Part shown: positions 6,828 through 64,000 of the stretch, piece after piece | How positions within the stretch are numbered: position 1 is the stretch's first letter | How the letters are laid out: the number at the start of each line of letters is the position of its first letter | Assembly: GCF_003148825.1 (NCBI RefSeq) | Contig: NZ_QGGZ01000001.1 | Location: forward strand, 930,001 to 994,000 | Length of the DNA: 64,000 nucleotides | Direction: 5' to 3' | Origin: Streptomyces sp. CG 926 | GTDB lineage: Bacteria; Actinomycetota; Actinomycetes; Streptomycetales; Streptomycetaceae | Translations under genes and position numbers: made by a program | Notes under the pieces: generated by a model | Databases searched by the model: none | Seen by the model: the letters and a program-made list of their open reading frames with translations, nothing else | What the model was told of the DNA's origin: nothing

Positions 6828-7607
6828 CTAGTACCCGATTCGCTCCGGCAGCGTCACATGTTTCTCCCACCCCGCGCGTCCGTACACCGGCTTGGCCGGC
6901 GGCCAGTTCACCGAAGCCGCCCCCGGGCACAGGAGCGCCACACGGTCCGGCAGGAGATACGGCGCCAGACCCAACGGGGGGCGTACCCCGTCCGGGGCCC
7001 GCCCCAGCTGCGCCACGAAATGGCCGAGCTTTAACGACGCCACGTAGCTGTACAGGCCGTGCTCGTGTTCCATCCGCGTGAACGACTCCGCGTACACCAG
7101 CTCTCCTGGAGACGTCTCCGGCTCGTAGAACGACACGGACACCACCATGGTGGGCCCCAGCGCGGCGTCCCGGTACAGGCTCTCCGGATCAACCGGGAGG
7201 ATGATCTCCGATGTCGGCCGGCCCCCGAGCTGAGGCCCCCGGTACGAGACCATGAGCGTCTTGACCACCCACAACGACACCAGAGCCTGCCGCTCGCCTG
7301 TGAGCACCACCGGCAGACCCCGGATCATCTGCGAAAGCGGTTCCCGAACCCGCTTCTCCAGCTGCGACATCCACCCGTTGTTACAGCCTGTGCACACTAC
7401 GCGGGCCTGATCGTTGAACAGCCCATTCTTCGTCTCATCCCGACGGTAGGCAACCCGGGGGCCATGAGGATCACGACCTTCGTTCTCGTTGATCGTGCGC
7501 TGGTGCGTAGGCGCGTCGGTGTACTCGGGGAACTCCCTCCTCAGCCACTTCGGAAGAATGTGCTCCTTCGACATGGGCCCCTGGGCGCCACAGAACATGC
7601 AAGCCAT
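6828..7607 (-). CDS. HNH-like zinc-finger protein, candidate nuclease
   Basis: A 259-residue protein that begins with a CxxC pair (MACMFCGAQG), followed by SKEHILPKW and later VCTGCNNGWMSQLE. This order (CxxC, a His-rich S-K-E-H-x-x-P-x-W segment, then CxxCN) is the pattern of a treble-clef HNH-type fold. The EH may correspond to the catalytic His region. The remaining 150 residues, including WVVKTLMVSYRG, are not assignable. The ATG at 7607 was chosen because it directly precedes the first Cys pair; a longer frame to 7679 would add a hydrophobic, atypical stretch. The stop codon TAG lies inside the IS right end, so the C-terminus may be IS-derived. A role in defence is conceivable but unproven. 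Confidence 0.65.
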   Translation of the reverse strand: MACMFCGAQGPMSKEHILPKWLRREFPEYTDAPTHQRTINENEGRDPHGPRVAYRRDETKNGLFNDQARVVCTGCNNGWMSQLEKRVREPLSQMIRGLPVVLTGERQALVSLWVVKTLMVSYRGPQLGGRPTSEIILPVDPESLYRDAALGPTMVVSVSFYEPETSPGELVYAESFTRMEHEHGLYSYVASLKLGHFVAQLGRAPDGVRPPLGLAPYLLPDRVALLCPGAASVNWPPAKPVYGRAGWEKHVTLPERIGY

Positions 7608-8193
7608 GAACAGCAATGCTAAAAGCCAACTCCCAACCGGGGGAGGGCAATAGCGCCACGGCAGAGCTGAAACAGTCACAGGGACTTCAAGATCACCTCA
7701 TTGCCCCTTTAGCCCGTATCTCGGCCAGACCCCTTTCGGGCGTTTCCACCGGCCTGTCGGCGTGCGCATGAAAAGTGCTCACCGGGGGACGGTGCTACGC
7801 ACCCTGCCACGCGTTCTGGGTGCTGTTCAGGGCGTGTGGGCGAAGCGCACTCGCCCTGCGAGTAGGTCACCCGACGAATCCCTGTCGGCGTTCACCGGGA
7901 AGAAGCCGTCGCCCCAGCTCGTCATTGCGCAGAGCACTGCACTCGGGCATCACCGAGTTTCACGGATCCGGCTTTCGGCATGCGAAGTTCGACTCGCAGC
8001 CACGCCACCGGGGCATCGGACGCAGAACTGGCCGGTTGTCGCGGGGCACTGACACCTCATGCAGGAGACGGGGCAACCAGTCCGGTCTGCGTCCCGGCCA
8101 ACGGCGAGCCGGCTTTTCGGGAGCAGCCGCTCCCGGTGCGGAAGGGCAGCAGTCGCCCGCCTGCGCGGTGCGCTGCTGCGCGGGCCCGCTGGT
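7608..8193. other. 586-bp stretch without a convincing gene
   Basis: Lower GC and mixed codon bias on both strands. The minus strand downstream of the helical-repeat gene contains a Cys-rich reading (CPVSCMRCQCP, then CVRCPGG), but no ribosome site or homology supports it. I see no RNA gene or repeat here. Confidence 0.4.
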
Positions 8194-10470
8194 TCATTCG
8201 ACGCGGGGCTCCGTGCGCTGCCAGAACGCTCGGGAGAGCACTCTCTGGTGATGCTTGAAGCGTTCCTTGCGCAAGGCATCGGTGAAGCTCCGGCCCCTAC
8301 TTGCGGTGGCTGCCGAAACCAGCGCGGCCGCGTTGGCGGAGAGCCCGGCCGCCTCCAGCGCCAGCACCAGCACGACCTGATAGGGCTCCTGTCTGGCCGC
8401 CGCAGTCGTGGTCATGATGCGGTTGCCCACTGCCTCGTGCTCCGCGCCGGTGGCCCCACCGAGCCGTTCCAACTGCTTGAGGAGAAGCACGATCTCCTCC
8501 GCATCCCGGTAAACCAGCGCCTGCAGCAGACACGTCAGCTCCGCGTGCAGCCCCGCAGCTCCCAGGGCGAGCACAAGCGGTGCCATTCCGGCGGGCGGAC
8601 CGCTCTGCGCTTGGGCCAAGAGAAAGGGACTGCCGGTGAAAGCGGACCCGGCCTGGTTCAGGTGGATCAGGAACCAGGCCGCATGGCCGGTGGGCCTGCC
8701 ACGAACGGTGCACGTGAAGACAGTCCGTGCGTACTCCGTCAGCCCGTTCCTCTCCAGACCGGCGACCACCGCTGCGGCTTCTTTGTAGCCGGCGGTCCGG
8801 GCCGCCCTTTCCAGCAGGACCGTCGCGCCGGGGTGGGTGCGGTCCAAGCCGTACAAGAGCTGCGAGAGGTCCGCGGGAGGCACGCTCTGCAAGGCGGTGA
8901 TCAGTGCTTCCGAAGCCTGCTGGTGACGGCCCATGGCGTGCATGTCCGTGATCAGCACCCGGGTGTCGGCCGTTGGACGGGAGGCGATGGCATGGTTGAC
9001 GACGGCGGTCGCGACATGATGCTTGTCCATGGCCTGCAGTGCCGAGACGAGAGCCAGCAGATGCTCGATTGTCTGGTTCTGCGTCGCGCTGAACACGGTC
9101 TCGGCATCGCTGTACAACCCTGCACGCGAGAGGGCCTCAGCCAGGGCAGCCACGTCGTACGCGGACCGACGGGTCGCGGCCGCAGTGTGCAGCACGCTCT
9201 TGACGGGGTGCATCCCCGCCTCCGTAAGGGAGCAGCTCAGGGTCACGATGTCGTGCACCGTGCGTTCGACGGCGACCGCTTCTATGGCGGAGACGACCGT
9301 CACGTCCAGCCCTGTGCCGGCCAGCCAGGTGAGCATGGGCACCACGTCGGGCAGCGGCCTGGTGGCGCAGGCGGCACCGAGGAGCGTCGCGGCCTGCTCC
9401 CGTAAGCCGCTCGCATGCAGGCTGCGGACCAGTAAGGCTATGTCGCGCGAGGTGTGCAGCTGCACCGAGGCACGAAGTAACTGGACCAGGTGTTCTTCCA
9501 GGCCCGCGTGGTGCAGGCTCACGATCAGCGCGCAGGTCTCCTCCACCGAACGCGTCATGACCATTGCGGGCAAGGCGGCCTCGGCGTGTGCGTGCAAGCC
9601 GGCGCTCTGCAGGCCCGCCAGTAGCACGGCGACCTCCTGGACCTCCCGGGAACGGCTGACCGAGGCCACCAGTTCGCTCGCCATCGCCCGCTGGGTCCGT
9701 GATTCGAGATCGGCGACGACCGTGATCAATTCGGCCACCGAGGCGCTGCGGTCGGTCTCTTCCAGTAGGGCCATCAACGAGATCCGGCCGACTGGATGCG
9801 CCTCCAGGTCCTGGGCCTGTTCCAGCTGGGTTTCCAGGTGATGGCACTGCTCCTCGGCCGCGATCAGTTCCGCGCGGGCAACGGCCAGTGCCTCCCGGAG
9901 GTAGCCCACCTGCTGCCCGAGATCGCGGCACTCGTTCTCGAGCTCGTCGAACTCACCCTGCCACAGCTCGAGGTCGCTCCGGCGGGCGAGCCGCTGGCCT
10001 TCAAGGTCCACTTGGAGCTGTCGGCAGCGCCCCTGGGCCTCGGCCAGGCGCTGGGTGCGGTCCATCAGCGCTTCTTCCAGGGCACGCTGGCGGGTCCGTA
10101 TGCGGCGGGTCTCTTCATCCGCCTCGGCCAGCCGATCCTGCAGAGTCTGTTTCTCGCTGTCGCTGCGGTGACACTTCAGCGCCTTCCAATGCAGGGAGCG
10201 CAGACCCGTCTCGGCTTCGAACGTGACCGGCGAATCCACCTCGCGCAGATCGGCAAGCACCCCGGCGACGAAGTCCCACGGGGGGACGCGCTCTCCACCC
10301 AGATAGCGGGTGACGGTGCTGGGGTCCATGTGCCGGCGTGCCGCATAGCGGCGGACGCTGACGCCCAGCGCGAGGAACACGCCGCGGAGGTCCTCGGCAA
10401 AGACCCGCTTCTCGGGCGGAAGGCCTTCCTTCAGAGGTGACAGACGAGCTGGTTGTGCCGTGCGCTCCAT
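8194..10470 (-). CDS. HTH / coiled-coil / tandem helical-repeat protein
   Basis: A 758-residue soluble protein in three parts. Residues about 25-75 form an XRE-like helix-turn-helix (DLRGVFLALGVSVRRYAARR, then DPSTVTRYLGGERVPP). Residues about 105-225 are a long Glu/Arg/Leu-rich coiled coil. Residues about 250-735 are about 15 imperfect repeats of 31-36 residues with the pattern 'small-acidic-hydrophobic, LL..L..AGL, ..A..LL..A', for example VAVLLAGLQSAGLHAHAEAA and VVLVLALEAAGLSANAAAL. They resemble PPR/TPR-like two-helix repeats. No enzymatic motif is visible. It could be a DNA-binding scaffold or sensor. It is transcribed away from a small membrane-protein gene, and similar long HTH proteins occur in other streptomycetes. 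Confidence 0.8.
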   Translation of the reverse strand: MERTAQPARLSPLKEGLPPEKRVFAEDLRGVFLALGVSVRRYAARRHMDPSTVTRYLGGERVPPWDFVAGVLADLREVDSPVTFEAETGLRSLHWKALKCHRSDSEKQTLQDRLAEADEETRRIRTRQRALEEALMDRTQRLAEAQGRCRQLQVDLEGQRLARRSDLELWQGEFDELENECRDLGQQVGYLREALAVARAELIAAEEQCHHLETQLEQAQDLEAHPVGRISLMALLEETDRSASVAELITVVADLESRTQRAMASELVASVSRSREVQEVAVLLAGLQSAGLHAHAEAALPAMVMTRSVEETCALIVSLHHAGLEEHLVQLLRASVQLHTSRDIALLVRSLHASGLREQAATLLGAACATRPLPDVVPMLTWLAGTGLDVTVVSAIEAVAVERTVHDIVTLSCSLTEAGMHPVKSVLHTAAATRRSAYDVAALAEALSRAGLYSDAETVFSATQNQTIEHLLALVSALQAMDKHHVATAVVNHAIASRPTADTRVLITDMHAMGRHQQASEALITALQSVPPADLSQLLYGLDRTHPGATVLLERAARTAGYKEAAAVVAGLERNGLTEYARTVFTCTVRGRPTGHAAWFLIHLNQAGSAFTGSPFLLAQAQSGPPAGMAPLVLALGAAGLHAELTCLLQALVYRDAEEIVLLLKQLERLGGATGAEHEAVGNRIMTTTAAARQEPYQVVLVLALEAAGLSANAAALVSAATASRGRSFTDALRKERFKHHQRVLSRAFWQRTEPRVE

Positions 10471-10703
10471 GTTTCAACAACCTCGCCGCAGACGCTGCCG
10501 ATCCGATCGAACGTCCAGTATCCCGGCTGGGACCCGACTGCGGCCGCTGCACGTGTTGCCGCTGCGGACGGCAACACCCCCGCCCCCGGCGAGGGGGTGC
10601 CGTCTGCACCGGCAACACCCAACGCCGCCGTCCCAAGTCCTGGCTCGCTCAAGATGGAATGAGCGGCTCGAAGGAGCCCTGTCCAGGTAGGAGACACAGA
10701 CAC

Positions 10704-10892
10704 ATGGAACGGCTCGACGACGGCGCCGGAGAGCGCAAGTCACCGCAACCCGCCGCACCGTGCCCCCCGCACCGGCGGCAACGGTTCAACCGGCTGGTGC
10801 GCCGACTGCTGCTCCAGTCACTGCTGGGCGCCGCCGGTGCCGCGGGCGCCACACTGATCACCTGGCTGCTCGCCTGGCTCCAGTCGCTCTGA
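10704..10892 (+). CDS. Small single-span membrane protein (62 aa)
   Basis: The ATG at 10704 is preceded by GTAGGAG with a 9-10 nt gap. The protein has a polar Pro/Arg-rich first half (MERLDDGAGERKSPQP), then basic RRQRFNRLVRRLLLQ leading into a hydrophobic Ala/Gly/Leu helix ending in WLLAWLQSL. It is too short and compositionally simple for a family call. It is divergent from the helical-repeat gene, separated by 233 bp that must contain both promoters. Confidence 0.5.
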   Translation: MERLDDGAGERKSPQPAAPCPPHRRQRFNRLVRRLLLQSLLGAAGAAGATLITWLLAWLQSL

Positions 10893-11260
10893 CGAAGGCT
10901 TGGAATTCGCGAGCTCACCGAAGAGCTCGGCCTGGACACGACGGCGGCCGAGGGTGGGGACCTCATGTGGGTCGTCGACCAGCGTGTGACCCGCCCGGGT
11001 CCGACCCCGCCGCCGCGCAAGCGCCACCTGATCTACCGCTTCCACATCAGCCCCGACATCCGCGAGACCCTCGCCGAACAGGAGCTGGACGAGCTCCCCG
11101 ACGCCAGCCACGAAGTCGGCGTCATCGAGTGGATCGACTACCGAAAGACCGCCGAGCTGCCTATCTTCCCGCCCATCGGCCCCGCCCTCGCCGATCCACA
11201 CGCCCCGTCACCAACACGGCCCCATACGCCGTCACCGACACGAACTACACCTGGGTGTAG
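10893..11260 (+). pseudogene. Truncated, frameshifted Nudix hydrolase
   Basis: The frame opens at 10893 right after a stop and reads IRELTEELGLDTTAAEGG, which is the second half of a Nudix box (RE-x-x-EE-x-G). Everything upstream, including the GX5E part of the box, is missing. The reading continues to ELPIFPPIGPALAD and then loses sense. The typical C-terminus (PVTNTAPYAVTDTNYTWV, stop at 11260) continues in another frame, so there is also a frameshift near 11195-11215. Confidence 0.75.
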
Positions 11261-11619
11261 CGCTCGGATGCATCGACTTGGGGCCGGCCCCACGCATCAA
11301 CCGACCCACCGCAACAGAACTTGTGCTATCAGGCGTGACGGTTTGCGGGTGGCTGCGCTGGGGGAGGGCGGCGGGACGATGTGCAGCCGGTGGCTCTTTT
11401 TACCGGTGGTCGAACGGGAGCCGGCGGCGGTGGCTCGGCGGGCGTCGGCCAGGCGCTGCCGGTCGGCCGGGGTGAGTAGTGGGAAGGCCGCGCGGCTCGA
11501 TCTGGGCGAGCCGTCGTGCCCGTGGCTGCTGCCCGGGCCGGCGCCGACCTGACCGTCGGGGGCCCGATGGGGCTCCGCGCATTCACCGATTGCCCGGCCG
11601 GCGTTCTCCGCGATCCGCC
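11261..11619. other. Gene-free scar between pseudogenes
   Basis: About 360 bp of degenerate sequence. The minus strand reads LTPADRQRLADARRATAAG, which could be a transposase or HTH relic, but it has no start, no continuity and no partner sequence. Confidence 0.35.
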
Positions 11620-11751
11620 TCACCCGTCGCCAAAGCCCCCTACCGGCGCCGCCGCGACAACCAAGCAGAATGGCACGCCGCCGCCCGGCCCAACCTCTTC
11701 TACCGCATGATCGGCCAGCTCTACCGCTGCCTCCAGCAGGACCAGCAATAA
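11620..11751 (+). pseudogene. IS110-family transposase C-terminal fragment
   Basis: The plus frame ends with YRRRRDNQAEWHAAARPN, then LFYRMIGQLYRCLQ and a stop at 11751. This is the typical tail of an IS110-type transposase, in which a 'tyr-RRRRD...WH-AA-RNLFNRMIG-LH-CL' segment precedes the stop. No other part of the enzyme precedes it. Confidence 0.6.
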
Positions 11752-11801
11752 CGAGGAGCCGGCCTTTCCAGCCCACCTTCCGAGATGGGCACAGCGGCCA
11801 C

Positions 11802-12236
11802 CTAGCCAGAGACCGCTTGCTGATCCGGGGACCGCACCCAGGGGGCGAAGCGTTGATCCGAGCCTGCACCCTCGCGCCAGTACCGCAGGACGGATTCCTG
11901 GACAACATCGAACCGCTCAGCTGCGATCAGGCACGAGATCGGCTCCTGCCCGCCCGCGTCGGCCTCAAAGGCGATGACGACGGGCGGCGTTTCGCCGACC
12001 TGACGCGTGACTCTGAGGAGCTCGTCCGCCGTCGGTGCACGGAAGGTCGGATCGTAGAACGCGGACGGGCAGGAGACGAAGAACGGATCGCCGAAGACCA
12101 GTTCCAGGCCGTGGTGGTAAGCCAGGTCGTGGCCGGCAGCAAGTCTGAACTCCCCACCGTCCCAGGCGACCACGTCCCAGTCCCACCAGTTCCCCTCAGG
12201 GAGCCGGATCGCAGCATGCGTTTCTTCGATGTCCAC
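11802..12236 (-). CDS. Hypothetical protein (144 aa)
   Basis: The GTG at 12236 is preceded on the minus strand by AAGGGG about 6 nt upstream. The product is an acidic soluble protein with several Trp (LPEGNWWDWDVVAWDGG), a central LELVFGDPFFVSCPSAFYDP segment and LIAAERFDVVQESVLRYW near the C-terminus. No signal peptide, membrane span or known motif is seen. The size and acidic, aromatic-rich texture recall immunity proteins or SUKH-like orphans of accessory regions, but this is only an analogy. Neighbours are transposase debris, so it is a likely transferred gene. Confidence 0.55.
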   Translation of the reverse strand: MDIEETHAAIRLPEGNWWDWDVVAWDGGEFRLAAGHDLAYHHGLELVFGDPFFVSCPSAFYDPTFRAPTADELLRVTRQVGETPPVVIAFEADAGGQEPISCLIAAERFDVVQESVLRYWREGAGSDQRFAPWVRSPDQQAVSG

Positions 12237-13078
12237 CCGCGCCCCTTCGCTCGTTCGAACAGATCGACAGGCTACACAGCGGCTTTGACCGTGCGACTTG
12301 ACGAGTGAGGGCCCTGAGGTGTCTACGACGGACGGTACGGCCTCCCCAGGACCGCAGTCTTGAGGCGCAGCTGCTCCTGTGGCCGGCGCGGGATGGCCGA
12401 GTACCCGCTCGACTGCACCACCCTGCCCCACGACAAGCCGCTGTACGAGGCGGACATCGACCTGTCCGGGCCGATCTCGGACTGCGGCGCCCACCTGTCG
12501 GTGATCCAGGACGCCGCCGTCCCCCTCCCTACGGAGCTCAACGAGCCCGGGTCGGCCAGGACGCGACGGACGAACTCGCCGCCCAACGGGTACCGATCCA
12601 GCAGATCGCGACCGGACTCGGCACCGGCAAGGCCGCCGCCCGCACCTACCTCAACAGCTACCTCGGACACTGAACCGTGCAGTGGGTCGACAACGGCCCG
12701 CTACGGGGCCATCTCTGCGCGTACAGGGAACGTTCGAGATGCGGACGTGGGAGGCGGTGACGGAGCAGGCCGTGGCGGCGCAGAGGGGGCGGGGGTGGGG
12801 CCGGGCGAAGACCCTGGCGCGGCTAAGGGAAGGGCGGGAGCGGTGACCGGCACCGAGGCGGTCGGGGCCGGAGTTCCCGAGGCCTCAGCGGCAGTGCTGC
12901 CGAGTAAGACGGTCGCGATGCTGAGAGCGAGTGTGGTTAAGCATCTGGATCTCAAAGGACGTGCTTTCTGAGCTAGGTCATAGCGCGCCAAGGCGGGAGG
13001 CAATGGTGCGTCAGTTCGAAGAGGGGGCAGGCTATGCAGCACTTTGAAAGATCGTCAACGAGGTTGAGATGAGGGCTG
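12237..13078. other. Degenerate accessory DNA, no sure gene
   Basis: The plus strand near 12550-12672 reads an HTH-like tail (LAAQRVPIQQIATGLGTGKA, stop at 12673) without a sensible start. The minus strand from about 12960 to 12701 reads a signal-peptide-like segment (LTTLALSIATVLLGSTAAEA) followed by a Pro/Ala-rich tail, preceded by a possible promoter (TTGACG, 18 nt, TAGCCT near 13028-13057). It has no good start codon, so I treat it as a remnant of a secreted-protein gene. Confidence 0.35.
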
Positions 13079-13273
13079 ATGACCATCAATCTGACTCGAT
13101 TCGGCGCAGCTGCCGCGCTTACCCTGGCTCTGTCGGCCGCGACCGGTGGCGCCTTAGCTGTGCCGGCCCGATGCGCGGCTTTCGCTGGATCGACCGCAGG
13201 GCGCGAATCGTCGACTCGTCGGAGATCCCTGTGGTCGTCGGCCATTCAACGCCGGAGCCCGCGAGGTCGCTGA
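13079..13273 (+). pseudogene. Signal-peptide fragment of a secreted protein
   Basis: The ATG at 13079 begins MTINLTRFGAAAALTLALSA and ends a clear Sec signal at ATGGALA. After about residue 28 the reading turns into Arg/Ser-rich nonsense that is antisense to another gene fragment. The original mature domain has been replaced by rearranged DNA. Confidence 0.4.
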
Positions 13274-13451
13274 CGAAGACAATCTCCACCGCCAGGAGAG
13301 TACGTGCCCAGCCCACCGGAGGCAGCGGAACGTCGGGGGTGACGGGCGCCGATATGGCTTCGAGCTGTTTGACTCGCCGATCGATCGCCTCCTCGTCAGC
13401 GTCCCAGTCGGGAAGGGAGCCAGCAGCGACGAACGGGAAAGGCCGCCAGTT
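13119..13451 (-). pseudogene. Truncated hypothetical gene in a chimeric frame
   Basis: The minus-strand frame reads a coherent protein segment: DWDADEEAIDRRVKQLEAI, then GWARTLLAVEIVFVSDLAGS and STIRALRSIQRK. Upstream in the same frame it is fused to an IS110 transposase tail (from 13502), and downstream after about 13175 it runs into unrelated Arg-rich sequence. Both ends are therefore junctions. The family is unknown; the core looks like a real globular protein. Confidence 0.45.
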
Positions 13452-13570
13452 CGTCGAACCGTTGAACGGGTTGCGCTGTGCGGCAGCGTGCCAGTCAGCG
13501 TGACATCGCGTCGCCGCCGGTAGTGGGCTTTGGCGCCGGGCGAGGCGGTGATCGCGGAGAACGCCCAGAG
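13452..13570 (-). pseudogene. IS110-family transposase tail, minus strand
   Basis: The minus strand reads WAFSAITASPGAKAHYRRRRD, then after a one-base frame change HADWHAAAQRNPFNGSTNW. This is an IS110 C-terminal segment. It faces away from the plus-strand IS110 piece at 13580-13711. Confidence 0.6.
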
Positions 13571-13579
13571 ACATCCGGC

Positions 13580-13711
13580 GTGGTTGAGCAGCTCGGCGCC
13601 CGGGTGCTCGCCGAGATCGGAGACGACCGACGGCGATTCGCCGACGCCCGCGGGCTGAAGGCTTACGCCGGCGCCTCGCCCATCACCCGGGCCTCCGGCA
13701 AGAAGAACGCC
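13580..13711 (+). pseudogene. IS110-family transposase central fragment, plus strand
   Basis: The plus strand reads VVEQLGARVLAEIGDDRRRF, then ADARGLKAYAGASPITRASG. This is the conserved helix-hairpin-helix-containing segment of IS110 transposases. In an intact enzyme it is followed by the segment found inverted at 13452-13570, so the element has been scrambled. Confidence 0.7.
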
Positions 13712-13727
13712 CGTCATCACGTGCATC

Positions 13728-13760
13728 TTGGTCGGAGCACATGATCAGACGAAGGCCGCC
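13728..13760 (+). repeat. Subterminal IS repeat, copy 2
   Basis: TTGGTCGGAGCACA then GACGAAGG, matching 6419-6450 with four scattered substitutions over the first 29 bases. Confidence 0.6.
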
Positions 13761-13837
13761 CCCACGTCCGGGGATTCTCCATGTGAGCGACGTAGTTCGA
13801 GGCGCCCTTCGAGGGGACCCGAACCTCGAGCGAGTCC

Positions 13838-14083
13838 CTACCAGCCCATGTTCTTGGCCACTTCGCCCTGGGCTGCGGCGATCTCTTCACTGGTGGACTC
13901 GACGATGTCCACCTCCTCCAGGCGTGCCAGCAGGTCTGCGAGAGCCTGCTTCTGAGCCGGGTGCGTGATCGGTACAGCGTTCAGGTCGGTGCTCATCAGC
14001 CAGTCGAACAGCACGATCGCGTCAGCACGCCACAGGCGGAGATCGACGGTCGGTGTAGAACCCCAGGGGAACCCAGTTTCCAT
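13838..14083 (-). CDS. Small hypothetical protein (81 aa)
   Basis: The ATG at 14083 begins METGFPWGSTPTVDLRLW. The product is acidic and helical, with WRADAIVLFDWLMSTDLNAV and QALADLLARLEEVDIVES segments and no signal or membrane helix. It appears intact, unlike its surroundings. The ribosome site is weak. It lies between a subterminal IS repeat and an IS outer end, so it may be IS cargo or a small gene captured beside a relic. I do not recognise a family. Confidence 0.55.
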   Translation of the reverse strand: METGFPWGSTPTVDLRLWRADAIVLFDWLMSTDLNAVPITHPAQKQALADLLARLEEVDIVESTSEEIAAAQGEVAKNMGW

Positions 14084-14384
14084 GTGAGCATCTTGCCAGG
14101 TCACAGCGCTGTGATGCATCGCAGATCAACGGTCACGCGGCTGCCTGCCCAACCTTCGGCGTCGACGACGCCGAAAGATAAAGAACAAGCTAGGCCGTCT
14201 CGGGGCACTGTCGAAGCGCTGCCGTGGGGCGGGGACACGGCGGAGTGTCCCGCAGGACGAGGCGCGACCACCGGGTACAACCGAGACGAACCAGCACGCG
14301 CCGAGCCGAGGAGACACTCCGCCGGGGCACCGCCGCACACCGAAGCGATCCCCGGCGGAGCCACCGGGTACGCGCAGCCGAACC
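14084..14384. other. Non-coding stretch with solo IS end
   Basis: No gene is seen. Positions 14177-14196 carry GATAAAGAACAAGCTAGGCC, the same outer end as the IS right end at 6815 (two mismatches over 17 bp), in the same orientation relative to the subterminal repeat at 13728. Confidence 0.45.
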
Positions 14385-14430
14385 CAGCCCCGCCGGCGAT
14401 CGAGGCGCGGGGCCCGGGGCAGCGCCCCGG
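14385..14430. repeat. Streptomyces-type dispersed palindromic repeat, likely terminator
   Basis: CAGCCCCGCCGGCGATCGAG followed by GCGCGGGGCCCGGGGCAGCG and CCCCGG. From memory this motif recurs hundreds of times in streptomycete intergenic DNA. It contains a GGGGC/GCCCC stem and lies just downstream of ridA on the minus strand, where it probably ends the catabolic operon. Confidence 0.6.
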
Positions 14431-14452
14431 CACCACCGCCCCGGCGGCCCGG

Positions 14453-14851
14453 CTACGGCAGGACCGCCACCCCGTCCAGTTCGACCAGCGCCGCCTCGTC
14501 CCAGAGCCGCACCACGCCGATGACGGCCATCGCCGGATAGTCGCGGCCCGCCAACCTGCGCCAGATACCGCCCAGTTCGGCCGCGTGGGTCCGGTACGCC
14601 GCCACATCCACCGCGTACACCGTCACCCGCGCCAGCTCCGCCGGCGTGCCCCCCGCCGCGGCGAGGGCTGCCAGAAGGTTGGCGAGGGCGGTCTCGAACT
14701 GCTCCGGCAGGCTCTCGCCGACCACCTTGCCCGCGCCGTCCAACGCGGTCTGGCCCGCCAGGAACACCAGCCGGCTTCCGGTCGCCGCGACCGCGTGCGA
14801 GAAGCCCGTCGCGGGCGACAGCTCCGCCGGGTTGATCCGGTCCAGGCTCAT
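14453..14851 (-). CDS. RidA family protein (enamine/imine deaminase-like)
   Basis: A 132-residue YjgF/YER057c/UK114-family protein. The family's central features are visible: the hydrophobic VFLAGQTALDGAGKVVG strand-turn, the LANLLAALAAAGGT helix, and a basic/aromatic late strand (PAMAVIGVVRLWDEAALVE). RidA proteins deaminate reactive enamines or imines; in 2-aminobenzoyl-CoA clusters a RidA-type protein could handle the imine formed after dearomatisation. Its ATG overlaps the TGA of the acyl-CoA dehydrogenase gene in an ATGA arrangement, so translation is coupled. Confidence 0.88.
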   Translation of the reverse strand: MSLDRINPAELSPATGFSHAVAATGSRLVFLAGQTALDGAGKVVGESLPEQFETALANLLAALAAAGGTPAELARVTVYAVDVAAYRTHAAELGGIWRRLAGRDYPAMAVIGVVRLWDEAALVELDGVAVLP

Positions 14852-16050
14852 CGCGCCGTCACCCCCGCCATCCCCGCCGCGCCCGCGGCTCCCGCGGCCC
14901 CCGCGTACAACTCCTTCGCGATGATCGTGCGCTGCACCTCGCTCGCCCCCTCGTAGATCCGCGGTGCCCGTACCTCCCGGTAGAGGTGTTCGAGCAGGTG
15001 GCCGCGCTGGAGGGCGACCGCGCCGTGCAGTTGGACCGCGTGGTCCACCACGTACTGGGCCGTCTCCGTGGCCAGCAGCTTCGCCATCGCCGCCCGGCGC
15101 GGTACGTCCCCCGCGCCACGGTCGTAGGCTCCGGCCGCCGCGTACACCAGCAGCCGGGCCGCCTCCGTACGGGTGGCCATCTCGGCCACCCGGTGCGCCA
15201 CCGCCTGGAGGTCGCTCAGCGTTCCGCCGAAGGCGGTCCGGTCCGCCGTGTACGCGAGCGTCGCGTCCAGCGCGGCCCGGGCCATGCCCACCGCGAAGGC
15301 GCCGACGCTCGGCCGGAAGAGGTTCAGGGTGTCCATCGCGACGCGGAACCCCCGCCCGGGTTCGCCGAGCAGGTCCCCCGGGCCGACCGGTACCCCATCG
15401 AAGGTGAGGGAGCCGATGGGGTGCGGGGAGAGCATGTCCAGGGCCGCGCCGGAGAGTCCGGGGCGGTCGGCCGGGACCAGGAACGCCGAGACCCCCTTCG
15501 CCCCCGGCCCCTCCCCCGTTCGGGCGAACACGGTGTAGAAGTCCGCCTCGGGGGCGTTGGAGATCCAGCACTTCTCACCGCTGAGCCGCCAGCCACGGCC
15601 GTCGCCATCCCCATCGCCATCGCCATCGCCATCGGCCGCCGGATCGGCGGTCGCCGCCAGGGCCAGTGCCGCCGCGTCCGAGCCCGCCCCCGGCTCGCTC
15701 AGCGCGAAGGCGGCCACCGTCCGCCCGGCGCGTACTCCCGGCAGCCAGCGCTCCCGCTGCCGCTCGCTCCCCGCGCGTAGCACCGGGTACGCCCCGAGCC
15801 CCTGCAGGGCGAGCGCCGTCTCGGCCTCCGTGCAACCGTAGGCGAGGGACTCCCGCAGCAGGCACAGTTCCAGCGCGCCCGAGGCGAACACCCGCTCCAG
15901 CAGGCCCAGCTCGCCCAACGCCGCCAGCAGCGGCCGGTTGACCCGCCCCGGTTCCCCCTTCTCGGCCAGTGGCCGCAGCCGCTCCGCCGCCAGTGCGCGC
16001 AACTGCCCGCACCACTCCTCCTGGTCCACCCCGAGCGCGAATCCGGTCAT
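14848..16050 (-). CDS. Acyl-CoA dehydrogenase family protein
   Basis: A 400-residue flavoprotein dehydrogenase. The signature FALSEPGAGSD (residues 114-124) and the C-terminal RIYEGASEVQRTIIAKEL are present; the Glu in YEG is the position of the catalytic base in short-chain enzymes. Within the middle domain a loop is expanded to about six Asp-Gly pairs (residues 139-150), encoded by a hexanucleotide repeat. The C-terminus is an Ala/Gly-rich tail. The gene is divergent from the CoA ligase gene, coupled to ridA, and probably acts in ring-product beta-oxidation. The ATG at 16050 is the only plausible start. Confidence 0.92.
   Translation of the reverse strand: MTGFALGVDQEEWCGQLRALAAERLRPLAEKGEPGRVNRPLLAALGELGLLERVFASGALELCLLRESLAYGCTEAETALALQGLGAYPVLRAGSERQRERWLPGVRAGRTVAAFALSEPGAGSDAAALALAATADPAADGDGDGDGDGDGRGWRLSGEKCWISNAPEADFYTVFARTGEGPGAKGVSAFLVPADRPGLSGAALDMLSPHPIGSLTFDGVPVGPGDLLGEPGRGFRVAMDTLNLFRPSVGAFAVGMARAALDATLAYTADRTAFGGTLSDLQAVAHRVAEMATRTEAARLLVYAAAGAYDRGAGDVPRRAAMAKLLATETAQYVVDHAVQLHGAVALQRGHLLEHLYREVRAPRIYEGASEVQRTIIAKELYAGAAGAAGAAGMAGVTAR
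15604..15633. repeat. Hexanucleotide repeat GCCATC x5 inside acyl-CoA dehydrogenase
   Basis: Five consecutive hexamers, one with a C for the first G, encode the (Asp-Gly)n loop on the minus strand. The repeat is in frame, so length changes would not disrupt the protein. Confidence 0.85.
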
Positions 16051-16080
16051 CCGAATATCCCCGCATCTATCGCGTCCTGT

Positions 16081-16107
16081 TGACTGCCGTCACCATCACG
16101 ATACGCT
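16081..16107 (+). promoter_or_regulatory. Divergent promoter with palindrome TGACTGCCGTCA
   Basis: The palindrome TGAC-N4-GTCA (16081-16092) lies between the divergent dehydrogenase and ligase genes. On the plus strand TTGACT (16080-16085), 16 nt and TACGCT form a plausible sigma-70-type promoter. On the minus strand GTGACG, 18 nt and TAGATG form another. The palindrome overlaps both -35 boxes, the usual arrangement for a repressor site. The same palindrome lies at 22778. Confidence 0.5.
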
Positions 16108-16195
16108 CCTGGAAGGACCTTCCGGCGTGGCCGGGAGAACTACCGCACGGCCGGCTCCACCCCACCCCGGACCGCTGCAAGGGGGGCGACCCGCC

Positions 16196-17851
16196 TTGGA
16201 CCTCAAGCCTTCCGCTCACATCGACACCTTCGCCCGCGACCATCTGCCACCCGCGGACACCTGGCCGGAGCTCGTCTTCGATCTGCCCGAACTGGCCTAT
16301 CCGGACCGCCTGAACTGCGGGGCCGAGCTGCTCGACGCCACGATCGCCCGGTTCGGTCCGGCCGGCGCCGATCGCCCGGCCTTCCGCAGCTCGACGGGCG
16401 AGGTGTGGACGTACGGAGGCCTGCGCGAGCGGGTGGACCGCCTGGCCCACACCCTCGTCGCCGACCTCGGCGTGGTCCCCGGCAACCGGGTGCTCCTACG
16501 CGGACCCACCGGCCCCTGGCTCGCGGCCTGCTGGCTCGCGGTGATGAAGGCGGGCGCGGTGGCGGTCACCGTACTGCCGCAGCAGCGCGCGCAGGAGCTG
16601 GCCACGGTGTGCGCGATGGCCCGGGTGGGGCACGCGCTGTGCCACGCGGACGTGCTGGACGACCTGGTCAAGGCGGAGGTGCCGGGGCTGCGGATCACCG
16701 TGTACGGGGGCACCGCCCCGGACGATCTGCTCCGGCTGGCCGAGAGGCACCCCGAGCCGTTCCCGGCCGCCCCGACCTCCGCGGACGACGTCGCCCTGAT
16801 CGCCTTCACCTCCGGGACCACCGGTCGACCCAAGGGCTGCATGCACTTCCACCGTGACCTGCTCGCGGTCGCCGACACCTTCTCCCGCAGCGTGCTGCGG
16901 CCCCGCCCCGACGACGTCTTCGCGGGCAGCCCCCCGCTCGGTTTCACCTTCGGCCTCGGCGGGCTGGTCGTCTTCCCGTTGCGCGCCGGGGCCTCGGCGC
17001 TGCTGCTGGAGGAGGCGGTGCCGCGCCGGTTGCTGCCCGCGCTCGCGGAGCACCGGGTGACGGTGCTGTTCACCGCGCCCACCGCGTACCGGACGATGCT
17101 GGACGCGCTGGGCCCGTACGACGTGGGCATGTACGACCTGTCGGCGCTGCGCCGTTGCGTCTCGGCGGGGGAGAACCTGCCCGCCGCCACCTGGCAGGCC
17201 TGGTACGAGCGGACCGGCCTGCGCATCATCAACGGCATCGGGGCGACCGAGCTGCTGCACATCTTCATCTCCGCCGCCGACGAGGACATCCGGCCCGGCA
17301 CGACGGGTCGGGTGGTCCCGGGTTGGGAGGCCCGGGTGGTGGACCGGGCCGGCCGGCCGGTCCCGGACGACGAGCCGGGGCTGCTGGCCGTGCGCGGCCC
17401 GGTGGGCTGCCGCTATCTGGCCGATCCACGGCAGGGCGAGTACGTACGGGACGGATGGAACCTGACCGGTGACACCTACGTCCGCGATCCGGAGGGCTAC
17501 TTCCGCTATGTCGCCCGGGCCGACGACATGATCGTATCGGCGGGCTACAACATCGCGGGCCCCGAGGTGGAGGAGGCGCTGCTGCGCCACCCGGACGTGG
17601 TGGAGGCGGCGGTGGTGGGCCTCCCGGACGAGCGACGCGGGCAGATCGTGGTGGCGTACACCGTGGCCCGCGACGGCGCGGTGCTGACGGAGGAGGTGCT
17701 GCGTACCTTCATGCGGGCGGAGCTGGCCCCGCACAAGTGCCCGCGCTCCTTCGTCTTCCTCCCCGCCCTCCCGCGTACCGCGACGGGCAAACTGCAGCGG
17801 TTCCGGCTGCGTGATCCCGACGCCCGACCCGACCCGCCCCACAGGATCTAG
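16196..17851 (+). CDS. Benzoate-CoA-ligase-family enzyme (probable 2-aminobenzoate-CoA ligase)
   Basis: A 551-residue AMP-forming aryl-CoA synthetase. The adenylation P-loop-like motif FTSGTTGRPKG is at about residues 203-213, the INGIGATELLHIF motif (A5-like) at about 344, and the GDTYVRDPEGYFRYVARADD hinge region with the C-terminal catalytic Lys in PRTATGKLQRF. INGIGATELLHIFIS is characteristic of the benzoate/aminobenzoate ligase branch. The TTG start at 16196 follows AAGGGGGG by 9 nt and begins the conserved region; an in-frame GTG at 16127 is an alternative. It is followed after 9 nt by the PaaX-family gene. The substrate is inferred from the linked monooxygenase fusion. Confidence 0.85.
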   Translation: MDLKPSAHIDTFARDHLPPADTWPELVFDLPELAYPDRLNCGAELLDATIARFGPAGADRPAFRSSTGEVWTYGGLRERVDRLAHTLVADLGVVPGNRVLLRGPTGPWLAACWLAVMKAGAVAVTVLPQQRAQELATVCAMARVGHALCHADVLDDLVKAEVPGLRITVYGGTAPDDLLRLAERHPEPFPAAPTSADDVALIAFTSGTTGRPKGCMHFHRDLLAVADTFSRSVLRPRPDDVFAGSPPLGFTFGLGGLVVFPLRAGASALLLEEAVPRRLLPALAEHRVTVLFTAPTAYRTMLDALGPYDVGMYDLSALRRCVSAGENLPAATWQAWYERTGLRIINGIGATELLHIFISAADEDIRPGTTGRVVPGWEARVVDRAGRPVPDDEPGLLAVRGPVGCRYLADPRQGEYVRDGWNLTGDTYVRDPEGYFRYVARADDMIVSAGYNIAGPEVEEALLRHPDVVEAAVVGLPDERRGQIVVAYTVARDGAVLTEEVLRTFMRAELAPHKCPRSFVFLPALPRTATGKLQRFRLRDPDARPDPPHRI

Positions 17852-60172: not shown

Positions 60173-62761
60173 TCAGAACGGCGTCGGATCAGCGTCGTCG
60201 ATCGGGCGGCGGGCCTCCGCCAACGCGACCTCGTGGACGAACCACTCCAGTACGCAGCGGAGCTCCTCGCCGTGCTCGGCGAAGACCTCCAGCGGGAAGG
60301 ACGGGCGCAGGTCGAGCTTCGCCTCCGCCAGGTCGATGCCGTCGATGGCGTTGAACCGCTCCATCAGGCCGCGGCGCAGCGGCTCGTCGTCGAACGGCGG
60401 GCGCCGCTTGAGGTACTGGAAGACGACCTCCGCCGTGCCGCTCACCGGGTAGACGCCGATCGGCCACAGTGCCCGCGGCGCGTTCGGGCCGCCGGCGTCC
60501 AGGGTCGGGAAGCAGCTGGTCTCGTTCGCCTTGCCGTAGACCCGGTAGCCGCCCTGCTCCTCCCAGAACCGGAGCACGCCCAGAACACCCTCGACGACCT
60601 GCGGCGTCTGGTTCCCGCGCAGCAGCGTCTCGAAGCGGGTGGCCGCCTCGTCACCGCCGGCCGACGGCGATGCCGGTGGCCCCGCCGGACTCTCCGGGAT
60701 CTCCCGGCCGACCAGGACCGCGAGGTCGGTGCTGCTCAGGCGGTGGGCCTTCGAGGCGCGGCCGTTCTCGTCGAAAGGCACGCCCTCCGCCTCCAGAACG
60801 ACCTTGGGGTCACCGGAATGCCGGTCGTCCGTCCACCGGAAGCCACCGGCGATCCGTCCGTCGGCGGTCAGCACGCGGTACGCGCAGTGCAGGCCCTTCT
60901 TGGCCGCCATGTGGTTGCCCACGGCGATGGCGCTGGTGCCGATCAGTGCGGCGAGTTCGCCGTACGAGGTCCAGGTCCCGGCCGGTACGGCGAGCAGGGT
61001 CTCCCGCAGCTCCCGCCAGCCGGCCCATTCGTCGTCCGCCCGCACGACCCCTTCCAGGGGTCCGGGCCACAGCCGCACGGCCCGGTCGGCCAGTTCCCCG
61101 GCCCGGGCGAGGATCTCGGTGCGGCCCCAGCGCTCCTGTGCGGCGATGTGCTGGTTCATCCGCAGCGCGCTGGAGTCGAGCAGTTCCTGCTTGCGGTGGA
61201 AGGGGTGGTTGGAGAGTCGAGCGTTCTCGCCGGAGAGCGTGAGGTTACCGAGGGTGTGCACGAGCAGGTGGTGGATCTCCTCGGGGCTCTCCCCGTCCGC
61301 GACCTCCTCGGCCAGCAGGTCGAACCACTGCTGGGCCGGGCGCTGCGGCAGCACGTGTTCCACGGTGAGCGGGGCCTTGTCGTAGTCGACGGGCTCGCTC
61401 GACCCGTAGCTCTCCTCCAACCGGCGCAGGATCTGGAAGCGCTGGTTGCTGCGGCCGGTCTTGTAGAAGGGACGGGTGCGGACGGCTTCCCGGACCGCGT
61501 CGTCGCCCGGCCAGACACGGGCGCCGGTGCGGGGGCGCGAGAGGAAGCGGCGTACGGCCTCGGCCGGGGAGCCGTCCTTGTCCAACTCCTTGGGGAGTTC
61601 CATGAACACCCGGTTGCTGCCCGTCGTGGACAGGCCGGCGAAGAGGCGCCGCACCATGTAGCTCTCCGCGAACGCGAGGGCGGCCGCCGCTTCAGCGGCC
61701 GTGGTCACGGCCCCGTCCACGAGGTCGAGGAGGTGCAGGGCCAGCGGGTAGTGGGTCTGGCCGCCCCAGCGCGACAGGCGCTCCAGTACCGCCCGCAGCG
61801 CGGGGTCGTTCTCCCGCTCGGGTTCCATGATCCGCATGAGCCGGTCGGCGCGCAGGGAGAACCGGGCGATCTCGGCCTCCAGTGCCGCCTCGTCCCCGGT
61901 GAGCGGCTCCAGGCGCTTCTTCTGGTCCCGGTAGATCTCGCTCTGCCGCGCCCGACTGTTCCCTCCGACGACGAGGTCCAGCCACACCAGCAGCTCCAGG
62001 CGGTCGGGGCCGAGCAACTCCTGCATGGGGAGCCACCGCTTGCGGTAGACGTCCTCGCCCCTGGTGGGCAGGTACATGAAGAGGTAGTTGCGCAGCAGGT
62101 CGCTCTGGCTGAGCCCCACTCCGGTGTTGTTGATGGACTCGAAGATGCGGTAGACGTTGTCGCCCTCGGCGGCGGTGATCGCGACGATCGAGAGGCATTC
62201 GCCGAGGACGGACTCGACCGCGTCCACCCAGGGCTCCCCGCCGTTCTCCGTCCCCTCGGCCAGAGCGGCGACGAAGAAGCGGTAGGCGGCGCCCACGTTT
62301 CCGGCGCCGCCGGCCTTCGGGAGGCTGTCCACGCAGGCGGTGTACGCCTCGCGGTCCGCCTGCGTCGGCAGCAGCCGGTATCCGTCGTGCCCGTCCTGGT
62401 AGGAGTTGACCAGGATCAGGTCGTTGATGCGGGCGGCCTTCTTCGCCGAGCCCCGGCCGCGGTGGTGGTCCCGCAGCGCGGTGAAGGCGAGCATCAGGGT
62501 GGTCATGCGCTGCTGCCCGTCGACGACGAGCCAACGCCGCATCCCGCCCGCGGCGACGCGCTCGGGCGCCAGCACCACCGATCCGAGGAAGTGGCCTGAT
62601 CCGGAGCGGCCTTCCTGTCGGTCCTCGACCAGCTCCTGCACGTCGTCCCACAACTGCCGCAGTTCGTCGCGCTGCCAGCTGTAAGTGCGCTGGTAGAGCG
62701 GTACCTGGAACTGCTGCTCCCCCTGAACCAGCTTGCTGAACGTCGTCTCCTGAGCGTGCAC
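60173..62761 (-). CDS. GmrSD-like DUF262-DUF1524 nuclease fused to an alkyltransferase-like domain
   Basis: An 862-residue protein. Residues 1-about 230 are DUF262 (ParB/Srx fold): QETTFSKLVQGEQQFQVPLY and the hallmark DGQQRMTTL at 81-89. Residues about 465-540 are DUF1524 (HNH fold): VEHVLPQ, then HTLGNLTLSGENARLSNHPF. This pair is the GmrS-GmrD architecture of type IV restriction enzymes. Residues about 590-645 resemble the MGMT/ATL DNA-binding domain (GTWTSYGELAALIGTSAIAV, then CAYRVLTADGRIAGGFRW), with Ala in place of the active Cys of PCHRV. A C-terminal 180-residue region is unassigned. GTG at 62761 follows GGGGAGAGGA. It is divergent from a RelE-like/helicase gene. Confidence 0.9.
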   Translation of the reverse strand: MHAQETTFSKLVQGEQQFQVPLYQRTYSWQRDELRQLWDDVQELVEDRQEGRSGSGHFLGSVVLAPERVAAGGMRRWLVVDGQQRMTTLMLAFTALRDHHRGRGSAKKAARINDLILVNSYQDGHDGYRLLPTQADREAYTACVDSLPKAGGAGNVGAAYRFFVAALAEGTENGGEPWVDAVESVLGECLSIVAITAAEGDNVYRIFESINNTGVGLSQSDLLRNYLFMYLPTRGEDVYRKRWLPMQELLGPDRLELLVWLDLVVGGNSRARQSEIYRDQKKRLEPLTGDEAALEAEIARFSLRADRLMRIMEPERENDPALRAVLERLSRWGGQTHYPLALHLLDLVDGAVTTAAEAAAALAFAESYMVRRLFAGLSTTGSNRVFMELPKELDKDGSPAEAVRRFLSRPRTGARVWPGDDAVREAVRTRPFYKTGRSNQRFQILRRLEESYGSSEPVDYDKAPLTVEHVLPQRPAQQWFDLLAEEVADGESPEEIHHLLVHTLGNLTLSGENARLSNHPFHRKQELLDSSALRMNQHIAAQERWGRTEILARAGELADRAVRLWPGPLEGVVRADDEWAGWRELRETLLAVPAGTWTSYGELAALIGTSAIAVGNHMAAKKGLHCAYRVLTADGRIAGGFRWTDDRHSGDPKVVLEAEGVPFDENGRASKAHRLSSTDLAVLVGREIPESPAGPPASPSAGGDEAATRFETLLRGNQTPQVVEGVLGVLRFWEEQGGYRVYGKANETSCFPTLDAGGPNAPRALWPIGVYPVSGTAEVVFQYLKRRPPFDDEPLRRGLMERFNAIDGIDLAEAKLDLRPSFPLEVFAEHGEELRCVLEWFVHEVALAEARRPIDDADPTPF

Positions 62762-62863: not shown

Positions 62864-64000
62864 ATGGCGACGCTGGGAATCCACAAGGACTTCCTCCTGG
62901 AGTTCGCCCGGCTGGAGAAGACGGTCCAGAAGCGGGTCCACGAGGTCTTCGACAAGTTCCGCGAGCACCGCCATGCCGGGCTCCACCTGGAGAAGTTGGA
63001 GAACCCCCGCGACCCGCGGATCCGCACCATCCGCGTCAACAAGTTCATGCGCGGGGTCGTTCTCGCTCCGGAGTCCGGCGACAGCTTCCTCCTCCTGAAG
63101 GTCATGGCGCACGACGACGCCATCGCGTGGGCGCTGAGCCACCGGGCGACGGTGAACTCGGCGACCCAGGGCATCGAACTGCGCGACGACATCGCCCTGG
63201 AGCGCGCCGCCGCCGATGTGCGCCACGCCTCGCCGGTGGCGGAGGCGCGGCTCTTCGCCGAGGTCGCCGACAAGGAGCTCACCCGCCTCGGCATCGACCC
63301 CGATCTGCTGCCCCTGGTACGGAACCTCAGTACCGAGGCCCACCTCGACGCCCTCCGCAAGATCCTTCCGGAGCAGCAGTACGACGTACTCGCCGGGCTG
63401 GCCGCGGGGCTGAGCCCGGAGGACGTCTGGCGCGAGTCCGTGGCCGCTCAGGCCGAACGCGCCGCCACCGCGGCCCGGCAGGCACCCGCCGGGGACGAAC
63501 TCGCCGCCGCGATGGCCCGCTCGCAGGGCCGGATCGCCGTGCTCTCCGGGCCCGAGGAGTTGCTGGAGGTCCTGTCCCGGCCGTTCGACGCCTGGCGGGT
63601 GTTCCTGCACCCCAGCCAGCGGCGCATCGCCTACCACCCCTCCTACAGCGGGCCGGCCCGGGTGACCGGCGGCCCCGGCACCGGCAAGACCGTGGTGGCC
63701 CTGCACCGCGCGCTCCATCTGGCGCGGCAGCTGCCCGAGGACGCGCCCGACGGATCGGTGCTGCTCACCACCTACACCAGGAACCTCGCCGCCGACCTGC
63801 GCCACGGACTCGAACTGCTCATCCCGGACGAGGCGCTGCGCGCGAAGATCCGCGTCGTCAACGTCGACGCCCTCGCGAATCAGCTCGTACGCGAGGACCG
63901 GGGCGGGCCGCTGACCATTCTGACCGGCCAGAAGGACATCAACTCCCGCTGGAACGCCCTCGCCCGCAGGCTCGGTCTCGACTACGGCGACGTCTTCCTC
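62864..64000 (+). CDS. RelE-like domain fused to UvrD-type helicase (partial)
   Basis: The first 379 residues of a larger protein; it runs off the right edge in frame. Residues 1-about 105 are similar to RelE/ParE mRNA-interferase folds (HKDFLLEFARLEKTVQKRVH, then NPRDPRIRTIRVNKFMRGVV and LLLKVMAHDDAIAWALSH). Residues from about 240 start a superfamily 1 helicase: ARVTGGPGTGKTVVALHRAL (Walker A at 269-276) and SVLLTTYTRNLAADLRHGLE (motif Ia region). The ATG at 62864 follows GGGGG. The divergent promoter with the DUF262 gene is about 100 bp. Confidence 0.88.
   Translation, partial: MATLGIHKDFLLEFARLEKTVQKRVHEVFDKFREHRHAGLHLEKLENPRDPRIRTIRVNKFMRGVVLAPESGDSFLLLKVMAHDDAIAWALSHRATVNSATQGIELRDDIALERAAADVRHASPVAEARLFAEVADKELTRLGIDPDLLPLVRNLSTEAHLDALRKILPEQQYDVLAGLAAGLSPEDVWRESVAAQAERAATAARQAPAGDELAAAMARSQGRIAVLSGPEELLEVLSRPFDAWRVFLHPSQRRIAYHPSYSGPARVTGGPGTGKTVVALHRALHLARQLPEDAPDGSVLLTTYTRNLAADLRHGLELLIPDEALRAKIRVVNVDALANQLVREDRGGPLTILTGQKDINSRWNALARRLGLDYGDVFL

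Follow-up and report, generated by a model that had tools for sequence, protein, structure and literature searches.

A gene on the reverse strand of the Streptomyces sp. CG 926 genome (contig NZ_QGGZ01000001.1), at positions 60173..62761 of the 64,000-nucleotide stretch analysed here (the window), encodes a GmrSD-type nuclease that is extended by a winged helix resembling the alkyltransferase-like (ATL) proteins and by a further C-terminal domain. We tentatively regard the product as a modification-dependent (type IV-like) nuclease situated in a defence island, in which the ATL-derived winged helix would help to target DNA by a changed mechanism, and we place the probability of this explanation at roughly 0.43. 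The module is constant among close homologues, has been gained repeatedly and possesses fixed residues of its own, which argues against a dead tail; base flipping in the usual manner is improbable because the arginine that would occupy the space vacated by the base has disappeared.

The architecture itself has been in print since 2015. Machnicka et al. (2015, PMC4619093) recorded PF01035, the domain family of the ATL-like match, in several GmrSD homologues, mainly from various Streptomyces, with the same core domains and extra PF01035 as here; DUF4268 and DUF4357 also occur in homologues of this family. The accessible text of that survey devotes one sentence to this occurrence and describes neither the replacement of cysteine by alanine, the loss of the arginine finger and the separate gains, nor the last domain. 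No later work on the GmrSD-PF01035 fusion was found among the open-access papers searched. What is new is the recognition of a remodelled ATL subfamily that was gained twice, and of a last domain shared with other proteins. If the ATL module does set specificity, this would represent a new route by which a bacterial nuclease recognises modified DNA of phages, through a repair fold that has given up both repair and its base-flipping arginine, and the first residues of the recognition helix would be predicted to hold a specificity code. Otherwise, the protein is still an example of DNA-repair folds reused as additions to defence nucleases. The case also warns that a missing cysteine is by itself insufficient to name a domain an alkylguanine reader.

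Domain architecture and the nuclease core

The reading frame at 60173-62761 contains no internal stop and, with the stop codon included in its coordinates, specifies 862 residues from a GTG start, which is plausible given an ATG at the equivalent place in two homologues (MRANET in L021 and MRAQEI in L207; L and G numbers denote loci and genomes of our comparisons). All features of the gene given below lie on the reverse strand. Three Pfam matches exceed their family cut-offs: GmrSD_N (DUF262, a ParB/Srx-like domain) at residues 9-228 (62078..62737; E 8.6e-32), GmrSD_C (DUF1524, an HNH nuclease domain) at residues 417-559 (61085..61513; E 4.5e-26) and DNA_binding_1 (PF01035, the DNA-binding domain of the alkylguanine alkyltransferases AGT and MGMT) at residues 586-647 (E 1.2e-8; 35.1 bits against a cut-off of 27). 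The last of these falls within an ATL-like winged-helix region at residues 572-690 (60692..61048). Among NCBIfam models, ogt and Ada gave weak matches below their cut-offs, while in PADLOC the core is closest to the 'Orf5' model (E 1.1e-133), followed by the HEC-06, mREase_IV and SspE models. Residues 700-852 (60206..60664) form a C-terminal domain that belongs to no Pfam family and is nonetheless conserved in 60 aligned sequences, which agrees with its description as unassigned in an earlier interpretation of this DNA made from the letters alone (the sequence-only reading).

The same interpretation had proposed a GmrSD-type nuclease, and this is borne out by the presence of both Pfam domains with intact nuclease motifs. 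The motif definitions, including the E/D-H-N-N residues of the DUF1524 HNH domain, were those of the 2015 GmrSD survey (PMC4619093). The DUF262 motif DGQQR occupies residues 81-85 (62507..62521) and a pattern match places EHVLPQ of the HNH domain at residues 468-473 (61343..61360), with the HNH-domain motifs LGNLTL at 504 and NHPFHRK at 518. Among 63 ATL-bearing cores, DGQQR is found in 62 (the exception, L020, is a split frame), EHxxPQ in all and LGNLxL in 62. With DGQQR in its DUF262 domain and the E/D-H-N-N residues in its DUF1524 HNH domain, the protein is by sequence a member of the GmrSD family.

A remodelled ATL-like module

A chance match to PF01035 is ruled out by the E value of 1.2e-8 in the window and by an alignment of the ATL region in which 64 of 64 members match the family at E<=1; four fragments among 67 distinct matches (two pieces of L011, and L037 and L039) were dropped from this alignment. 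One member, L030, falls just below the family cut-off when its whole protein is scanned (26.2 against 27 bits). When the PDB was searched with the 64-sequence profile, Schizosaccharomyces pombe Atl1 was the best match (1.8e-8) and 2kif the second (8.3e-8), with MGMT proteins following from 1.9e-5. The PDB name of 2kif, from Vibrio parahaemolyticus, is methyltransferase family protein; we take it to be an ATL since the alignment shows no cysteine at the acceptor place. The profile similarity does not end with the Pfam match; it continues into the LeaEGV stretch that comes next in ATLs.

A first model of residues 560-862 had a mean predicted local distance difference test (pLDDT) score of 59.1, and about half of its ATL part scored below 50. 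The ATL region was also modelled alone (residues 566-690, from 13 close sequences), with a mean pLDDT of 71.9. The first 38 Foldseek matches of the latter model were all MGMT, ATL or AGT-derived tags, and VIA aligned it with Atl1 at Z 7.3 (3gva; 3.1 A over 93 residues) and Z 7.1 (3gx4; 3.3 A over 95), and with 2kif at Z 6.0 (3.8 A over 93), with unrelated rows at Z 2.7 and below. Since profile search and model agree, the region most likely folds like an ATL, the sequence evidence being strong and the model evidence weaker to moderate. The MGMT/ATL-like winged helix of the sequence-only reading is upheld in this respect, and comparison of the model with known structures did not bear out the contrary case, that the region adopts some other fold.

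Both AGTs and ATLs employ an arginine finger and a tyrosine in base flipping (PMC10779285). The tyrosine is retained: Tyr600 (60962..60964), the equivalent of Atl1 Y25 and human Y114, is tyrosine in 63 of 64 sequences. The arginine finger (Atl1 R39, human R128) is not, its place being taken in the window protein by Ile612 (60926..60928) and across the alignment by Val (27), Gln (22), Ile (7), Met (3) and one each of Asn, Lys and Gly, with Arg in only 2/64. The place of the acceptor cysteine, which is Trp in most ATLs, is held by Ala627 (60881..60883); the residue here is Ala in 63 sequences, Gly in one and Cys in none, which rules out a true repair protein and confirms the earlier supposition that the domain is non-repairing. 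The arginine of the acceptor motif (R629) is invariant. Relative to Atl1 and 2kif, then, the module shares the fold, the tyrosine, the missing cysteine and the R-V that follows the acceptor position, and differs from ATL proteins in its lost arginine finger, in alanine rather than tryptophan at the cysteine place and in its fusion to a nuclease.

The loss of the finger belongs to the fused subfamily and not to the alignment method, since control MGMT/ATL domains retain Arg in 24 of 26 cases, the exceptions being Gln in L119 and Leu in L187. These controls were the 23 best of about 70 profile matches at loci not linked to GmrSD, together with five from the own genome, many being from related genera; exclusion of a fragment (L183) and of L122, which gave no match, left 26. 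A second contact is harder to judge. Atl1 R69 touches the flipped base (PMC10779285) and its column aligns with Gly640, where Arg is found in 0/64, although two residues further on Arg642 (Arg in 53/64) aligns with an arginine of 2kif. The R69-type contact cannot for this reason be called lost and may survive through Arg642, and its loss was dropped as an argument against alkylguanine reading. Other fixed residues are W597 and T598 (64/64 each) and F641 and W643 (61/64 each). Hence the suspicion that homologues might carry only a degenerate tail without DNA-contact residues applies in part: the flipping arginine is gone, but the module is not degenerate, having its own fixed residues and no instance of loss among the close homologues found.

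Homologues at E<=1e-100 were found in 50 of 295 Streptomyces genomes, and in all 50 the match extends past residue 686, so that none is without the ATL region; remoter Streptomyces GmrSD proteins that do not have it exist, for example L026 and L047. By identity to the window core, the 50 split into group A (about 70% or more), group B (about 65%) and group C (about 50%). At E<=1e-10, matches occur in 31 of 396 Actinomycetota genomes, mostly by the GmrSD core alone. We inferred a phylogeny of the fusion, which the sequence-only reading had suggested, from 56 nuclease cores (IQ-TREE), hand-picked from 83 by leaving out 28 near-copies or fragments. The tree places 33 ATL-bearing rows in one clade (support 100/100) and the other three (L030, L037 and L039) elsewhere, with 20 of the 56 rows, from the same phylum, lacking the module. 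The presence of ATL needs two changes on this tree, and a single change is allowed by 0% of 200 bootstrap trees. Long branches were flagged elsewhere in the tree, leaving its details unsure. The ATL fusion has arisen at least twice.

In the second ATL group the domain scan covered L030, where GmrSD_N, GmrSD_C, RAMA and DNA_binding_1 follow one another, the last just under its cut-off; L036, a relative of this group, has RAMA and no ATL match. RAMA has been suggested as a reader of adenine methylation, on mixed evidence (PMC11037411). Because RAMA and ATL both occur in the L030 group, one GmrSD core can be followed by two different candidate readers.

Residues 610-613, where the recognition helix begins, differ between the groups, reading for example SAIA or HAVP in group A, HPVP in group B and GAQA in group C. 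Gln takes the place of the finger in group C. Relative to the window, group A shows 82.4% identity in the core and 69.9% in the ATL region, group B 64.8% and 45.2% (with 56.9% in the last domain), and group C 49.6% and 47.1%, that is, with ATL divergence hardly faster than that of the core.

How target DNA may be recognised

In characterised relatives DUF262 binds and hydrolyses nucleoside triphosphate (NTP) and gates the HNH nuclease, and BrxU and GmrSD cut DNA with modified cytosines (PMC10952713). By analogy, gating of the DUF1524 HNH nuclease would here depend on NTP and DUF262. Without repair cysteine or arginine finger, the winged helix derived from ATL would be retained as a DNA-targeting module that most likely docks the nuclease on modified foreign DNA through a remodelled surface and not through canonical flipping of O6-alkylguanine. 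Probably the last domain, too, is a portable module that targets DNA. We infer both that the nuclease recognises a modification and that the two added domains bind DNA.

Known systems resemble parts of this scheme. BrxU and Eco94GmrSD are likewise single-chain, NTP-linked DUF262-DUF1524 proteins that cleave modified DNA, but the specificity described for them is for cytosine modifications, and the accessible parts of their descriptions mention no ATL-like or C-terminal extra module (PMC10952713, PMC12409352). SspE also combines DUF262 with DUF1524, and PADLOC SspE models match the window protein (best E 9.7e-19); it differs in sensing phosphorothioate by an N-terminal patch, in nicking DNA and in being distant in sequence (PMC10952713). 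A similar theme is provided by endonucleases in which a fused winged helix acts as a sensor of N6-methyladenine (6mA) in type IV restriction, although these are other combinations of winged helix and nuclease, and the accessible text names neither ATL nor GmrSD (PMC11037411).

Several points weigh against the explanation we favour. The ATL model derives from 13 close sequences, with one of five models above 60 pLDDT; none of its Foldseek matches reached E 0.001, and VIA Z values below 8 can, by the tool's own note, be commonplace. The HNH-domain motif NxPFxxK, in the pattern used here, occurs in only 56 of 63 cores. BrxU, for several modified cytosines, and SspE sense modifications without such a module (PMC10952713), so that extra modules need not set specificity. 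The missing arginine finger would fit a complete loss of base reading as well, and the faster ATL divergence of groups A and B would be consistent with new specificity but equally with relaxed constraint.

One alternative is that the ATL-like module has only a structural or general DNA-binding role (affinity, dimer contact or spacing), with sensing performed by the DUF262/DUF1524 core as in BrxU and SspE. Besides the precedent of these relatives (PMC10952713) and the near-absence of the finger (2/64), the contacts of the AGT helix-turn-helix are non-specific and in the minor groove (PMC10779285), and GmrSD cores of the same phylum are often without the module, as in 20 of the 56 tree rows. A mere spacer would not, however, require a fixed pocket alanine together with several fixed aromatics, nor does such a role sit well with at least two gains and presence in every close homologue found; we judge it unlikely on balance.

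A bolder account, which strikes us as more doubtful, is that the ATL fold was recruited onto GmrSD at least twice and rebuilt as a new class of modified-DNA reader. Dispensing with the arginine finger, this reader would use the tyrosine, a pocket made roomier by alanine in place of cysteine, Arg642 and the fixed aromatics W597, F641 and W643. The group-specific start of the recognition helix would decide the phage modification recognised, which might be a modified guanine, and the C-terminal domain would be a second reader common to other nuclease families.

The sequence-only reading makes the module a non-repairing reader of the alkylguanine type; on this model a modified guanine would be flipped into the former active-site pocket, which would bring the nuclease to its target. 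The ATL fold and Tyr600 (63/64) accord with this, alanine for cysteine could give a roomy pocket without repair, and Arg642 (53/64), on the loop of Atl1 R69, could contact the flipped base. Flipping without arginine is conceivable, because the MGMT control L119 has Gln at the finger place, as do group C and 22 of the 64 sequences overall. The gap-filling arginine is nevertheless lost (2/64 against 24/26 controls), and phages are not known to carry an O6-alkylguanine modification. The fold and the absence of repair in this proposal stand, canonical flipping probably does not, and an alkylguanine reader is weakly supported and quite improbable.

Streptomyces make DNA-alkylating compounds, and an ATL-like sensor might mark DNA alkylated by a competitor's or the host's own product for cutting by the nuclease. 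We consider this very improbable, given the defence-type genes that make up most of the examined neighbours, the phage-defence family to which the GmrSD core belongs and the loss of the arginine finger, even though archaeal ATL-EndoV and AGT-EndoV fusions, with a different nuclease and linked to repair, also place an AGT/ATL domain on an endonuclease (PMC10779285).

The last domain, neighbouring genes and mobile copies

The window copy of the last domain has no Pfam match, and in the 60 members scanned no match improves on E 0.048; one of 60 sequences, L048, was left out of the alignment. A profile search found the domain in 10 of 395 other Actinomycetota genomes. In the carriers that can be read at length (L135, L136, L138, L140 and L141) it forms the end of proteins, about 330-410 residues long, that carry a stretch like VPTIVEVKRSTDTRIRREVVGQMLDYA; we take this EVKR-type stretch, in L135 and the others, to be PD-(D/E)XK-like. 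Pfam named nothing in the four such carriers scanned, and L135 has a PADLOC match to PDC-S11 (3.5e-7). Since it occurs both behind GmrSD and behind EVKR-type nuclease-like proteins, the domain is portable, following at least two kinds of nuclease-like protein. A relation to DUF4268 (PF14088), a known GmrSD extra, found no profile support, hhalign against 12 DUF4268 domains giving a probability below 1% and Pfam no match. On a weak model, VIA placed YdhG/DUF1801 proteins first (Z 8.4, 3.6 A over 116 residues; Z 8.2, 3.7 A over 117), followed by NB7804A (Z 8.0), the C-terminal domain of T4 MotA with DNA (Z 6.2, 3.4 A over 99) and YjbR (Z 6.1, 4.4 A over 107), such values being common by the tool's note. 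For DUF1801/YdhG, hhalign gave no support and the best Foldseek E on the weak model was 0.69; the predicted likeness is a structural lead only.

Directly upstream of the nuclease gene, and divergent from it, lies a gene for a UvrD-like helicase on the forward strand (62864..64000, continuing past the window end; L003:7865-10012), with 716 residues in the genome. The first 100 residues of this helicase, for which there is no Pfam match, are RelE/ParE-like in look. UvrD sequence adjoins the nuclease gene in 14 of 15 closely related loci, L007 being without one and two loci, L009 and L015, holding the same protein. Ten of the 14 adjoining UvrDs look intact and four (L005, L008, L011 and L018) are split, decayed or partly found; the pair is convergent but still adjacent in L012, L013, L014, L017 and, by a remnant, L011. 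In the set of 295 genomes, 13 UvrD genes are at least 64% identical to the window neighbour, ten of which adjoin a nuclease gene, while one is 1.7 kb (G498) and one 17.5 kb (G610) distant and one (G678) is in a genome without a nuclease match. Of the 14 nuclease genes in group A, 10 adjoin such a UvrD, one has it near and three (G657, G419 and G441) are without it.

In 11 of 14 group B genomes a UvrD paralogue (47-48% identical) lies 3.5-7.6 kb from the nuclease gene. In the group B locus L207 (G523, 7489-16865) the interval between the two holds a gene with a DGQHR stretch and no Pfam match and a very large helicase with an MTES_1575 nuclease domain; comparison found the large helicase gene in L208, L209 and L210 and not in L211. 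A UvrD was seen in few of the group C stretches examined (in L095 a distant one nearby, in L087 a piece and in G641 one about 5 kb off), and an obligate partnership was for this reason not accepted; the UvrD helicase often accompanies group A but is not established as its partner. Gabija pairs a UvrD-like helicase (GajB) with an OLD-type nuclease (GajA). The neighbour matches NERD+UvrD and GajB models, but Gabija was rejected since the partner is GmrSD_N/GmrSD_C and not OLD.

Beyond the window, neighbour scans identified, all on the reverse strand, a second UvrD-like gene (48% identical; L003:11394-13520), an AIPR/AbiU-like gene (L003:13588-15801) and type I restriction-modification genes (L206:285-6708), and the surroundings also include a protein kinase. 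Judged by this gene content, the nuclease gene sits in a defence island. Elsewhere in the own genome (L001, contig C20) there is a second, distant GmrSD core, 26% identical and without an ATL region. A standalone-looking ATL gene in G043 (L038/L117:5034-5390) was set aside as a relic, since it starts within a GmrSD core end (WPGP). Among ATL-like proteins outside the fusion, L184, L185, L186 and L187 have Pro or Ala at the acceptor cysteine position, L184 has an additional N-terminal stretch that is helix-turn-helix-like in look, and the four possibly form a separate ATL-like family.

Profile scans of viral contigs with the ATL and last-domain alignments found no carriers, and tblastn found the ATL region in no phage and on one plasmid; the full protein matches 257 plasmid records, one of which covers at least 80% of the query. 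A group C copy (L049) is carried by the Streptomyces plasmid NZ_CP108689.1 at 63101-65680, about 6 kb from type I-E CRISPR genes.

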